A DNA stretch of 64,000 bases from Armatimonadota bacterium. GTDB lineage: Bacteria > Sysuimicrobiota > Sysuimicrobiia > Sysuimicrobiales > Humicultoraceae. Location of the stretch: the NCBI GenBank assembly GCA_031459855.1, contig JAVKHP010000001.1, positions 1,346,059-1,410,058 on the forward strand. Reading direction: 5' to 3'. A program made the translations under genes and the position numbers. Positions within the stretch are counted from its first letter, which is position 1; the number at the start of each line of letters is the position of its first letter. Below the pieces are notes generated by a model, which did not search any database, was not told where the DNA came from, and saw only the letters and a program-made list of their open reading frames with translations. Below are positions 36,745 through 41,223 of this stretch, piece after piece.

Positions 36745-37793
36745 GCACGCCCATCAGGTTTGGTGTGCTCAGCTTTGCCCACTACCACGCCGAGTTCTGG
36801 GCGGAGGCGGTCGCGAACCATCCCGAGGCGCGTCTGGCGGGCGTGTGGGACGAGGATCGCTCCCGAGGAGAGGCCGCCGCGGCCCGCCATGGCACCCGCT
36901 ACTTCGCCGAGCTGAACGCCCTGCTGCGGGAGTGCGACGCGGTGGGCGTCACGTCCGAGACCGCCCGACACGCCGATCTCGTGGAGGAAGCGGCCCGTGC
37001 CGGCGTGCACATCCTGTGCGAGAAGCCCATGGCTGCCACGCTCGCCGATTGCGACCGCATACAGCGTGCGGTCGAAGCGTCCGGGGTCGTGTTCATGCAG
37101 AACTTCCCCAAGCGCTTCGACCCGGTCAACCTCGACCTGGTCGCCCGAGTCCGGAGGGGCGATCTCGGTCACGTGGTCCTCGTGCGGATCCGACACGGCC
37201 ATGGCAGAGGCCACCAGCCAGAGTTCTTGCGGCAGTGGTTTGTCGACCCCGACCTGGCCGGTGGCGGGGCGCTGCTGGACGAGGGCGTGCACGCCGCTGA
37301 CTTTCTGCTGTGGCTGCTCGGTCCCCCTGAGCAGGTGACCGCGGTCGTGTCCCACCGGGCGCTGGGATTGCGGGCGGAAGACACAGCCGCGGCGATCTTC
37401 ACCTTCCCGGAGGGCAGCCTGGCCGAGGTCGTCACGAGCTGGAGCTTCGCCGCGGCCGAGCAGTCCATCGAGGTGTACGGGACCGAGGGGACGGCCCTGC
37501 TGTCGGGCGTCGATCTGGCATCGCGGGACTTTGCGTGCCCTCCTCACCTGAAAGTCTTCCGGCGCGGCGGCACTGTTGGCACGTGGGAACCTTCGCCCGC
37601 AACCACGACCTTCGGCGGCCAGCGGTTCCATCAGAGCGGCCCCAGGCATTTCATCGAGTGCCTGCGCGGCGGCCGGCAGCCGCAGCTTGGCGTGGAGGAA
37701 GGCCGGCGCGCTGTGGAGATGGTCCTCGCAGCCTACCGCGCCGCAGCCAGCGGGCGCAGCGAGTCTGTGGTCTTTGCGAGGGCGCCGCGGTGA
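36738..37793 (+). CDS. Gfo/Idh/MocA family oxidoreductase 2
   Basis: 351 residues. Rossmann start FGVLSFAHYHAEFWAEAVAN (degenerate, without G-x-G-x-x-G), EKP motif LCEKPMAATLADCDRI, then VFMQNFPKRFDPVN and LLDEGVHAADFLLWLLGPPE. The nucleotide loop being altered to LSFAHYH is a known subtype. GTG 36738 has GGGAGG 10 bp upstream; GTG 36741 is equally in frame. Two consecutive dehydrogenases suggest sequential oxidation and reduction through a keto intermediate. Confidence 0.9.
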   Translation: MVSTPIRFGVLSFAHYHAEFWAEAVANHPEARLAGVWDEDRSRGEAAAARHGTRYFAELNALLRECDAVGVTSETARHADLVEEAARAGVHILCEKPMAATLADCDRIQRAVEASGVVFMQNFPKRFDPVNLDLVARVRRGDLGHVVLVRIRHGHGRGHQPEFLRQWFVDPDLAGGGALLDEGVHAADFLLWLLGPPEQVTAVVSHRALGLRAEDTAAAIFTFPEGSLAEVVTSWSFAAAEQSIEVYGTEGTALLSGVDLASRDFACPPHLKVFRRGGTVGTWEPSPATTTFGGQRFHQSGPRHFIECLRGGRQPQLGVEEGRRAVEMVLAAYRAAASGRSESVVFARAPR

Positions 37794-39307
37794 TGGTGCC
37801 GGGCTACGAAGGGCTCAAGGCGTACTTCGGTGACCTGCACAGTCACTGCAACGTCGGGTACGGCTACGGCGCGCCCGAGGACGCCTATGCCAACGCGCGG
37901 CTGCAGCTGGATTTCGCCAGCGTGACGGCCCACGCGGCCTGGCCGGACATGCCTGCTTCCGACGCTCGGCTGTCGGACACCATCGCGTATCACCAGCGCG
38001 GCTTCGCACAGGCAGCGGCCCGGTGGCCCCGCCTGCGGGCGGTGACCAATGCGGCCAACGACGAGGGGCGCTTTGTCACCTTCCTCAGCTACGAGTGGCA
38101 CTCCCTGCGCTACGGTGACTACAACGTCTACTATCGGGACGGCGATGGCGAGATCGTGCCCGCGGTCGATCTGGAGGGGCTTCAGGCGGCGATACGGGAG
38201 CTGACCGCTGCGGGTCGACCCGCGCTCCTCATCCCCCATCACATCGGCTACCGGGTCGGCTACCGGGGCATCGATTGGGCAGCGTTTGCCCCGGAGTGCT
38301 CGCCCATCGTCGAAATCGTTTCCATGCACGGCGTCGCCGAGTCCGACGACGCCCCCTATCCGTATCTCCACACCATGGGCCCACGGCACGGCCCCAGCAC
38401 CATGCAGCACGGCTTGCGGCTTGGGAAGGTGTTTGGTGTCATCGGATCCACCGACCACCACGCTGCCCATCCCGGGAGCCACGGATGGGGGCGCGCCGGA
38501 GTCTGGGCTGCCGAGCTGACGCGCCAGGCGATCTGGGAGGCGCTGCGGCGACGTAGGACGTACGCCTTGACCGGCGACCGTATTGTGCTGGCCTTTGCCG
38601 TCAACGGGCAGCCGATGGGATCAATCCTGGGTTTCGCCCGCCGCCGGCGTATCGAGGTGGCCGTTGAGGCTGGAGGTGCGATCGACTACGTCGATGTGGT
38701 GCACAATGGTCGGTTGCTTCATCGGTGGACACCCGCTGTGCGTGATGACACCTCCGACTCCTGGAAGGTGGCGCTGGAATTGGGGTGGGGGGATCGAGCC
38801 GTGCCCGTTCGATGGCGGGTCGACCTCAGCGTGGAGCACGGCCGGTTGTTGGACGTAGAACCGCGGCTGCGGGGCCACGACGTGGTGTCCCCCGGGGGAG
38901 GGAGTACTGAGCATCTCGTCCTGAGCGCATGGGAACGTCGTGGGGATCGGGTTCTGCTCGAGACCACCACCTGGGGCAACCCCAATCCGTTGACGCCCGG
39001 CATCCAGGCCATCAGCCTGCACGTCGCCGGCGCTGAGGCCACCCGGATTGTGGGGCGTATCAACGACCAAGACGTCGCCGTCTCGCTGGCCGCGCTCCGG
39101 GACGGCGCGGAGGTGCGCTATCTCGGGGGATTTCGCACAGCGGCGTTTCGGTTCGGCCGCGCAGCAAGCCGCGGCGAGTTTTCTGGATCCTTTGCGCTGG
39201 AGCATGAGAGCGAAGGTGAGGGCGACTGGTACTACGTCAGGGTACGCCAGACGAACCATCAGTGGGCCTGGAGCTCGCCCATCTGGGTAGGCAGGTCCAA
39301 CGCATGA
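37793..39307 (+). CDS. CehA/McbA-family PHP metallohydrolase 2
   Basis: 504 residues, last gene of the operon. The PHP site starts at residue 11 (YFGDLHSHCNVGYGYG), then FLSYEWHSLRYGDYN, LIPHHIGYRVG, EIVSMHG and VIGSTDHHAAHPGSHG, with IWEALRRRRTYALTGDRIVL. A C-terminal beta-domain of about 220 residues follows. Unlike the first CehA-like protein it lacks the N-terminal beta-sandwich, so the two are paralogues with distinct architectures. ATG 37793 overlaps the previous stop (TGATG). Confidence 0.83.
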   Translation: MVPGYEGLKAYFGDLHSHCNVGYGYGAPEDAYANARLQLDFASVTAHAAWPDMPASDARLSDTIAYHQRGFAQAAARWPRLRAVTNAANDEGRFVTFLSYEWHSLRYGDYNVYYRDGDGEIVPAVDLEGLQAAIRELTAAGRPALLIPHHIGYRVGYRGIDWAAFAPECSPIVEIVSMHGVAESDDAPYPYLHTMGPRHGPSTMQHGLRLGKVFGVIGSTDHHAAHPGSHGWGRAGVWAAELTRQAIWEALRRRRTYALTGDRIVLAFAVNGQPMGSILGFARRRRIEVAVEAGGAIDYVDVVHNGRLLHRWTPAVRDDTSDSWKVALELGWGDRAVPVRWRVDLSVEHGRLLDVEPRLRGHDVVSPGGGSTEHLVLSAWERRGDRVLLETTTWGNPNPLTPGIQAISLHVAGAEATRIVGRINDQDVAVSLAALRDGAEVRYLGGFRTAAFRFGRAASRGEFSGSFALEHESEGEGDWYYVRVRQTNHQWAWSSPIWVGRSNA

Positions 39308-39434: not shown

Positions 39435-39463
39435 TTGACGACCGCCGGCCGGGCTGCTATGGT
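39435..39463 (+). promoter_or_regulatory. Promoter of glnA
   Basis: TTGACG (39435-39440), 17-bp spacer, TATGGT (39458-39463), about 100 bp upstream of the start codon. This places the transcription start near 39470. Confidence 0.5.
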
Positions 39464-39522
39464 ATGGCCAAGTTCTCATAGCCTCGCTGGGCCATGACGC
39501 CCCCGGATCCGGGGGCGTTTTT
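39464..39522 (+). terminator. Leader stem followed by intrinsic terminator upstream of glnA
   Basis: A perfect 22-nt palindrome, 39497-39518 (ACGCCCCCGGA mirrored), runs straight into five T residues (39518-39522). Before it, ATGGCC (39464-39469) can pair with GGCCAT (39490-39495). If the predicted promoter is right, the terminator lies inside the glnA leader and could attenuate it. Otherwise it ends the upstream operon. Confidence 0.65.
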
Positions 39523-39563
39523 GCGTTCCTGCGGCCCCGCGGGGAGCGGAGGAGGGAGCTGGT

Positions 39564-41018
39564 ATGGCGATCGTGGGCGACCGCCCGACCGCCGACGTCG
39601 CGGCGAGTCCCGAGCAGGTCCTGGCCATGGCGCGCGAGCGGGGGGTCCAGATCGTGGACCTCCGGTTCACCGACCTGTTCGGCATGTGGCAGCACTTCTC
39701 GATCCCGGTCACCGAGCTGTCGGCCGACCTGTTCACCGACGGCATCGGCTTCGACGGCAGCAGCATCCGCGGCTTCCAGCACATCCACGAGTCGGACATG
39801 ATCCTCATCGGGGATCCGTCCACGGCCGTGGTCGACCCGCTCAGCCGCATCCCCACCATGCTGCTGACGTGCGACGTCTACGATCCCGTCACCCGCGGCC
39901 GCTACACCCGCGACCCCCGGTTCATCGCCCAGAAGGCGGAGGAGTACGTGCGCAAGAGCGGCATCGCCACCACGGTGTACTTCGGGCCGGAGGCGGAGTT
40001 CTTCGTGTTCGACGAGGTCCGCTACGACCAGACCGCCAACCAGGCGTTCTACATGGTGGACAGCAGCGAGGGCATCTGGAACAGCGGGCGCGACGAGAAG
40101 CCCAACCTGGGCTACAAGCCGCGGCACAAGGAGGGCTACTTCCCCGTGCCGCCGTCGGACAGCCTGCAGGAGTTCCGCAGCGAGCTGGTCCTGAAGATGC
40201 AGGAGGCCGGCATCGAAGTCGAGGTGCACCACCACGAGGTGGCCACCGCCGGGCAGTGCGAGGTCGACATGCGCTTCAAGAGCCTGACCCGCATGGGCGA
40301 CCAGATGCAGCTGTACAAGTACCTGGTGAAGATGCTGGCCCGCGCGCACTTCAAGACGGCCACCTTCATGCCCAAGCCCCTGTTCGGCGACAACGGCTCG
40401 GGCATGCACTGCCACCAGAGCCTGTGGAAGGACGGGGTGAACCTCTTCTACGATCCCCGCGGCTACGCCAACCTGAGCCAGCTGGCGCGGTGGTACATCG
40501 GCGGCCTGCTCAAGCACTCGCCTGCGCTGCTGGCGTTCGCGGCGCCCACGACCAACTCGTACCGGCGCCTGGTGCCCGGGTTCGAGGCACCGGTGAACCT
40601 GGTCTACTCCAAGCGCAACCGCAGCGCCGCCGTGCGCATCCCGGTCTACTCCAGCAACCCCAAGGCGGTGCGCATCGAGTACCGGCCGCCCGACCCCCTG
40701 GCCAACCCCTACCTGGCGTTCGCGGCCATGACCATGGCCGGGCTGGACGGCATCAAGCACAAGATCGACCCCGGGGAGCCCATGGACGTGGACCTGTACG
40801 AGCTGCCGCCCGAGGAAGCGGCCAAGGTCAAGCAGGTGCCCGGGTCGCTGGACGCGGCGCTCGCGGCGCTGGAGGCCGATCACGCCTTCCTGCTGGAGGG
40901 CGACGTGTTCACCAAGGACGTCATCGAGACCTGGATCGAGACCAAGCGCAGGAAAGAGGTCGACTACATCCGGCTGCGGCCCCACCCATCGGAGTTCTAC
41001 CTGTACTACGACGCGTAA
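39564..41018 (+). CDS. glnA: Glutamine synthetase, type I
   Basis: Makes glutamine from glutamate, ammonia and ATP in the cytosol. 484 residues, typical of GSI. Signatures: [17 protein letters not shown] near 70, [12 protein letters not shown] near 140, [13 protein letters not shown] near 225, [19 protein letters not shown] near 275, [23 protein letters not shown] near 355. Tyr412 in [20 protein letters not shown] matches the adenylylation site of the GSI-beta group, so GlnE-type control is possible. GGAGGAGGGAG before ATG 39564 is a strong ribosome site. Monocistronic, flanked by terminators. Confidence 0.98.
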
Positions 41019-41052: not shown

Positions 41053-41080
41053 GGGGAGGCGGGAGCGCTCCCGCCTCCCC
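41053..41080 (+). terminator. Perfect 14-bp hairpin after glnA
   Basis: Arms 41053-41066 and 41067-41080 are exact reverse complements (GGGGAGGCGGGAGC and its complement), with no loop bases and no U-tract. It begins 35 bp past the glnA stop and is a likely transcription end signal or RNA 3' stabiliser. Confidence 0.65.
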
Positions 41081-41115
41081 GCGTGTTCCAGGCGAGCTGC
41101 GGCCGGGCTGCAGCC

Positions 41116-41223
41116 CTGCCGTGGGCACGTACCACCAGGAAGTGCTGCGCGCCTGCGCCTGCCAGTCCGCGTCTTGCTGCTGTCACCTCCTGCTGCCGTG
41201 GGCACGGTGCCACCAGGAAGTGC
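41116..41223. repeat. Two 31-bp direct repeats, 77 bp apart
   Basis: Copies at about 41116-41146 and 41193-41223 share CTGCCGTGGGCACG, a variable base or two, then CCACCAGGAAGTGC. The GTGGGCAC/GTGCCAC part is itself nearly palindromic. No gene is seen in 41019-41359 besides these elements. Confidence 0.65.

Follow-up and report, generated by a model that had tools for sequence, protein, structure and literature searches.

A conserved glnA leader of the Sysuimicrobiales, probably a variant ANTAR antitermination target

Introduction

ANTAR proteins are widespread, and the models used to search for their RNA targets fail in divergent lineages. In the published targets, as described in passages of PMC3369931, a hairpin termed P2 overlaps the terminator and the arrangement is found mostly before nitrogen genes; the genes behind ANTAR targets listed there by Ramesh et al. 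2012 include those for ammonium transporters and glutamine synthesis. According to portions of the work on the EutV-RNA complex (PMC8934654), the G at position 4 of the hexaloop (G4) stacks on Tyr164, no contact is made to the A at position 1 (A1), which may serve to prevent closure across the loop, and Met172 of EutV is needed (Walshe et al.). The same portions describe a single hexaloop as the minimal binding motif; yet each hexaloop of the dual motif needs contact to prevent termination in the EutV system. For Actinobacterial ANTAR RNAs, excerpts of PMC8164766 state that divergence made the classical search model fail.

Here we analyze the leader of a glnA gene located in a 64,000-nucleotide stretch of the genome of an Armatimonadota bacterium of the order Sysuimicrobiales (contig JAVKHP010000001.1, positions 1,346,059 to 1,410,058). 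This whole stretch is called the window, and coordinates refer to it unless stated otherwise.

Results

The glnA gene (39564..41018, + strand, ATG at 39564) encodes a glutamine synthetase of 484 aa (Pfam Gln-synt_C 1.5e-136, Gln-synt_N 9.5e-32) and follows a ribosome-binding site read from the sequence, AGGAGGGAG (39550..39558, + strand). Upstream on the same strand is a listed ORF with a DUF3604 match (37535..39307), whose true start may be further in. A promoter-pattern scan located TTGACG-N17-TATGGT with a TG before the -10 (39435..39463, + strand), a promoter already proposed in the first-pass annotation; this was the only sigma-70-like site found between 38700 and 41500 (shuffle mean 0.2), and a similar -35/-10 layout is visible in the glnA leaders of relatives. 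Transcription usually starts about 6-8 nt downstream of the -10, and the likely start here, judged from the -10 position, is 39470..39471 on the + strand.

An intrinsic terminator lies downstream (39496..39522, + strand); it is composed of a 10-bp stem (39496-39519) with the letters GACGCCCCCG-GATC-CGGGGGCGTT and a U-run (39518-39522). The perfect 22-nt palindrome with five Ts noticed at first pass before the glnA ribosome site is indeed present upstream of AGGAGGGAG: the palindrome (39497-39518) sits within the terminator stem and the Ts occupy 39518-39522. The leader also contains a hairpin absent from that list of leader structures, the putative antiterminator hairpin P2, GGGC(CATGAC)GCCC (39489..39502, + strand; 4 bp), with its hexaloop at 39493-39498 and G4 at 39496. 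Nucleotides 39496-39502 are common to both structures, and because the 3' arm of P2 is the 5' arm of the terminator, P2 and terminator are mutually exclusive. Folded alone, the terminator stem reaches -20.3 kcal/mol versus -5.7 kcal/mol for P2, so that stopping would be the default and P2 would need help to form. The folding energy of the 61-nt leader is better than that of shuffled sequences (z -3.1). By itself, the core word GGCCNNGRCGCC is no rarity in a window this rich in GC (3 occurrences versus 4.6 expected); the unusual part is the promoter-P2-terminator arrangement together with its conservation. When the whole window was searched with the Rfam covariance models, no match at or above the gathering score was obtained.

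A further stem, ATGGCC...GGCCAT, had been assigned to the leader at first pass. Its letters are present (39464-39469 and 39490-39495), but a pairing partner is kept in only 1 of 28 related leaders, the window's own, and the 5' arm lies directly after the -10, ahead of the expected RNA start; this stem was rejected as a chance match. After the glnA stop, the window carries a long GC-rich inverted repeat without T-run, GGGGGAGGCGGGAGC/GCTCCCGCCTCCCC (41053-41083), which is possibly a terminator of another type, and near-identical repeats GCCGTGGGCACG...CCACCAGGAAGTGC are found at ~41117-41145 and ~41194-41222.

Conservation was analyzed by a GlnA protein search of 61 genomes, followed by reading of the upstream DNA. 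From 45 rows (24 + 21; L021 included twice), 28 leaders with P2-terminator were retained; loci where no P2-terminator was seen directly before that glnA were dropped (L006, L008, L010-L014, L019, L021, L022, L024, L030, L032, L144, L146, L147). The 28 leaders share a layout consisting of a promoter, ~20-40 nt, then [G/A]GGC-N6-GCC[C/T] running into the terminator. Covariation in related glnA leaders had been named in advance as the check on an attenuated leader, and it was found in the 28-leader alignment: RNAalifold returned the terminator only, with two-sided changes at 5 of its 10 pairs. The terminator was paired in 96.7% of cells, versus 54-69% for slid versions. For P2 combined with P1, the upstream hexaloop hairpin, 80.2% of cells were paired (P2 100%, P1 63.7%) versus 35-47% when slid. 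The outer pair of P2 is GC in 20 leaders, AU in 6 and GU in 2; the six leaders with A-U fall in two groups of relatives and may represent two events. Promoter and terminator alike are real features of the glnA leader, conserved with covariation across the 28 aligned leaders of the order.

The reach of the element was assessed with R1, a covariance model of the glnA leader run on 46 and then on 193 genomes. At E<=0.001, R1 matched 34 of 43 genomes of the order and none of the 150 outside it, where the best match had an E of 0.0029. At E<=0.1 it matched 36/46 genomes, all in the order; because 14 of the 150 outside genomes are also matched at E<=0.05, weak matches are not evidence. On 80 glnA loci of other phyla, R1 gave 8 weak matches; the best (20.3 bits) was weak and downstream of glnA, so the glnA leader was not found in these loci. 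Seven of the loci dropped above (L006, L008, L010, L012, L013, L014, L019) have a model match 1.3-4.2 kb upstream on the same strand, and several of these matches precede an amt gene. L011 has a weaker upstream match (16.7 bits), with a P2 loop that starts with T, and for the second glnA copy of G001 (L144/L269) no upstream match was found (best 9.3 bits).

The 46-genome run gave 91 matches, of which 28 are the training leaders themselves, 44 were read in addition and 19 were not read (16 with E >0.005, and G026:C87, G039:C162 and G035:C32:38981). With two weaker matches from the window's own genome, the 28 and the 44 constitute a set of 74 elements, including 46 non-glnA elements. Among the latter, the gene that follows is amt in 16 cases and probably in one more, a REC-ANTAR gene in 9, a small ORF in 7 and doubtfully in another 2, a GNAT acetyltransferase gene in 3, an amino-acid permease gene in 3, LysE in 1, an aminotransferase gene in 1 and unclear in 3-4. 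These labels rely on Pfam for representatives (including 6 of the amt loci) and on reading of the translations for the remainder; the permease-like ORF of L263 gave no Pfam match. In the window's own genome, R1 matched glnA (E 4.6e-12), the small ORF (E 0.001) and two tandem elements before amt (E 0.13 and E 5.9). Taken alone these last two are not significant, but G020 and G026 show the same tandem arrangement before amt. Two other matches of this genome were dropped (E 0.64 and E 3.2); the first stands before a DAHP-synthase-like ORF, named by eye, and comprises the terminator part only. No R1 match was detected before the REC-ANTAR operon of the same genome.

Tandem P2-terminator units were observed before amt at L202 (own genome, C1 ~1.1545 Mb), L208, L214 and L265, and before a REC-ANTAR gene at L220. 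The small ORF, with a conserved DPxxLWVGTWxP, follows a P2-terminator in seven genomes (L201, L205, L206, L212, L217, L219, L264) and is 47-59 aa long in the six measured. The own-genome copy, L201, is at C1 ~3.0749 Mb on the minus strand; at L206, L212 and L219 the next large ORF after the small ORF is convergent. Its product is possibly a small regulator of nitrogen metabolism.

Every one of the 74 elements has the form GGC-N6-GCC. All carry G4, a count that is partly circular: the pattern used to anchor the 28 glnA leaders demanded this base, and R1 scores it favourably in the other elements. Loop position 1 is C in 73 elements and A in one (L254), and position 6, on which the terminator imposes a constraint of its own, shows C, T or A but never G; with such bases the P2 loop would be unable to close by a 1-6 Watson-Crick pair. 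The outer pair of P2 forms in 66/74 elements (shuffle mean 54.7, max 61 in 2000 shuffles), and because its 5' base is outside the terminator, its covariation speaks for P2 specifically. The next pair outward forms in 34/74, not clearly above shuffles (mean 27.6, max 37), and pairs further outward are at chance level in the 74 elements. When A1 hexaloops were sought before amt and glnA in 18 ANTAR-bearing genomes of other lineages, scattered matches without pattern were obtained.

P1 was not found in the window's leader, where the best G4 hexaloop hairpin has 1 bp. A G4 hexaloop hairpin of at least 4 bp is present in 12 of the 28 glnA leaders (for shuffled sequences, a mean of 1.7-1.8 and at most 7 in 200 shuffles), and in the glnA leaders of one family it is a perfect GGTAC-N6-GTACC hairpin. 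Non-glnA elements showed no enrichment (7/46 with at least 4 bp versus a shuffle mean of 4.5), and P1 as a general feature is unsupported outside part of the glnA leaders. Among elements with a recognisable -10-like box (many had no fitting box), the distance from the -10 to P2 is 22-30 nt for most glnA and small-ORF genes and some amt genes, and 6-7 nt in 10 elements, which precede three GNAT genes, four REC-ANTAR genes, two amt genes and one glnA-containing operon. In this short-spaced class the 5' end of the RNA would coincide with P2, with no space for P1.

The window's own genome carries one ANTAR gene (Response_reg + ANTAR), located behind a gene for a GAF-GAF-HisKA_2-HATPase kinase; the two genes are side by side at ~640.9-643.4 kb of its main contig. 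ANTAR (PF03861) was detected in 39 of 43 genomes of the order versus 26 of 150 others, and by coordinates 18 of the 39 genomes with ANTAR have such a gene no more than 5 kb away from a glnA. Genus g3 of the same family (G002, G008, G009, G010) is without ANTAR, without the element and without a close GlnA orthologue, the only GlnA found being distant (~41-43% identity); as the match between ANTAR and the element rests on this one ANTAR-lacking genus, it may reflect a single loss. The ANTAR-bearing genomes without R1 match, G003, G005 and G012, are 69-89% complete. The own ANTAR protein aligns with EutV and Rv1626 across the receiver and ANTAR domains. At the position of EutV Met172, the 31 distinct ANTAR rows of the order, a count that leaves out the shorter, diverged type of L256, L257, L258 and L262, have Arg in 28 and Gln in 3, and among 26 rows of other lineages 22 have Met, 2 Arg, 1 Gln and 1 Ser. 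These four loci encode REC proteins with a shortened, diverged ANTAR domain and have a short-spaced element in front.

Discussion

There is good support for the first-pass suggestion that glnA is preceded by an attenuated leader: relatives keep promoter, terminator and glnA together, the stem covaries, and the element also stands before amt and other nitrogen genes. The elements, the overlap of P2 with the terminator, the covariation, the recurrence before nitrogen genes and the co-occurrence with ANTAR genes point to a conditional terminator of the ANTAR antitermination type, with P2 stabilised by a REC-ANTAR protein, a reading that we regard as probable. RNA polymerase would start near 39470 and the terminator (39496-39519) would form by default, releasing an RNA of ~50 nt. 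By analogy with EutVW, which provides the model for the signal, its direction and the phosphorylation, a phosphorylated REC-ANTAR protein would, when the nitrogen signal is present, bind the six-base loop of P2 (39489-39502) as the hairpin emerges. With P2 bound, nucleotides 39496-39502 would be held, the terminator could not close and glnA would be transcribed. As regulators, the GAF-GAF-HisKA_2 kinase and the product of the genome's only ANTAR gene are likely. As for the nitrogen sensing first attributed to the leader, the support is indirect; the leader is short and without Rfam match, and the sensor role points to a protein, probably the REC-ANTAR protein with the GAF histidine kinase rather than the leader RNA itself.

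Several observations stand against the ANTAR reading: the C at loop position 1, the P1 that is missing in the window's leader and not enriched in non-glnA elements, the Arg in place of Met172, the dependence of the ANTAR-element match on one genus, the lack of an R1 match before the genome's own REC-ANTAR operon and the partly circular G4 count. The loop C and the Arg, together with a P1 that is undetectable in many elements, would also fit a terminator that is conditional but opened by another RNA-binding protein or by a small-molecule-binding RNA. We consider this unlikely, since ANTAR targets have just this layout, with a G4 hexaloop at the 5' side of a terminator that precedes nitrogen genes, REC-ANTAR genes themselves follow the element in 9/46 cases, and 18 genomes have ANTAR and glnA as neighbouring genes; moreover, no Rfam family is matched and an aptamer would not fit into the short-spaced elements. 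A different possibility is that the hairpin terminates the upstream DUF3604-type gene and that glnA has a promoter further down. This gene shares the strand of glnA and stops ~190 nt upstream of the hairpin; however, a good promoter separates the two, and the scan found no second promoter-like site between 39522 and glnA. In relatives, the promoter-P2-terminator remains with glnA behind other upstream genes, whereas a hairpin that merely closes an operon would not retain a promoter ahead of it, and the same arrangement heads amt and ANTAR genes. Such an origin of the hairpin is therefore very improbable.

P2 could also be a DNA operator for a repressor or an activator near the start site, the terminator being incidental. 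It is true that the start site has an inverted repeat nearby, GGGCCNNGACGCCC, and that P2 lies 6-7 nt from the -10 in 10 elements, and operator-only copies would have been missed because R1 requires a terminator. The spacing is nevertheless 22-30 nt in other elements, the outer pair of P2 covaries, P2 runs into a terminator stem that covaries as well, and P2-terminator units occur in tandem before amt, so that we give the operator hardly any credence. For the ANTAR reading, we tentatively extend the proposal, with slightly less than even confidence: the order may use a second ANTAR recognition code, in which a single C-N-N-G-A/G-C hexaloop, sometimes at the 5' end of the RNA, would suffice and would be read by an ANTAR domain whose Met plug is replaced by Arg. 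This code would run a nitrogen regulon (glnA, amt, transporters and the new small protein) as well as ANTAR genes, and the changes of loop base and plug residue would then be a matched protein-RNA co-change.

The elements of the order represent a large, self-consistent set of candidate ANTAR targets with a different loop base and often one detectable hairpin, and the set bears on whether one hexaloop suffices for antitermination. They offer a natural candidate for protein-RNA co-change that can be compared against the EutV structure, and a candidate nitrogen regulon, with an uncharacterised small protein among its members, in a lineage known here mostly from draft assemblies. Within the collection of papers searched, none combining ANTAR, ammonium transporter, glutamine synthetase and terminator was found, although passages of PMC3369931 report such targets in similar words.

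Glutamine riboswitches of the glnA type are likewise leaders upstream of glnA; unlike them, the leader described here lies in a window without any Rfam family at gathering score. Its features are closer to those of the targets of EutV (Enterococcus eut), NasR (Klebsiella nasF) and AmiR. Like these targets, as far as the cited passages describe them, it has a six-base-loop hairpin of at least 3 bp with G at loop position 4, the 3' arm of P2 is the 5' arm of the terminator, and the element stands before nitrogen genes; as in the EutV system, the genome encodes a HisKA_2 kinase and REC-ANTAR pair. In an alignment with EutV (PDB 6wsh/6ww6), the own ANTAR protein keeps the equivalents of Arg142, Lys143, Lys149, Glu160 and Arg175; Tyr164 is replaced by Phe, also aromatic, and Met172 by Arg, Lys147 by Arg, Arg168 by Gln, Asn173 by Asp and Arg177 by Pro. 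The RNA differs from the known targets, as those passages present them, by its C at loop position 1 where they have A, and by a P1 that is clear in only some glnA leaders, with some RNAs appearing to start at P2. A comparable divergence from the classical model is reported in excerpts on Actinobacterial ANTAR RNAs (PMC8164766), for which the A1/G4 dual stem-loop served as the reference, whereas the elements of this order have C1 and often one hairpin. Because Ramesh et al. list amt and glutamine synthesis targets in the passages of PMC3369931, this kind of element is known; because A1 and P1 both belong to the published definition and the window's leader has C1 and no detectable P1, we classify it not as a plain member but as a variant that would work like an ANTAR target.
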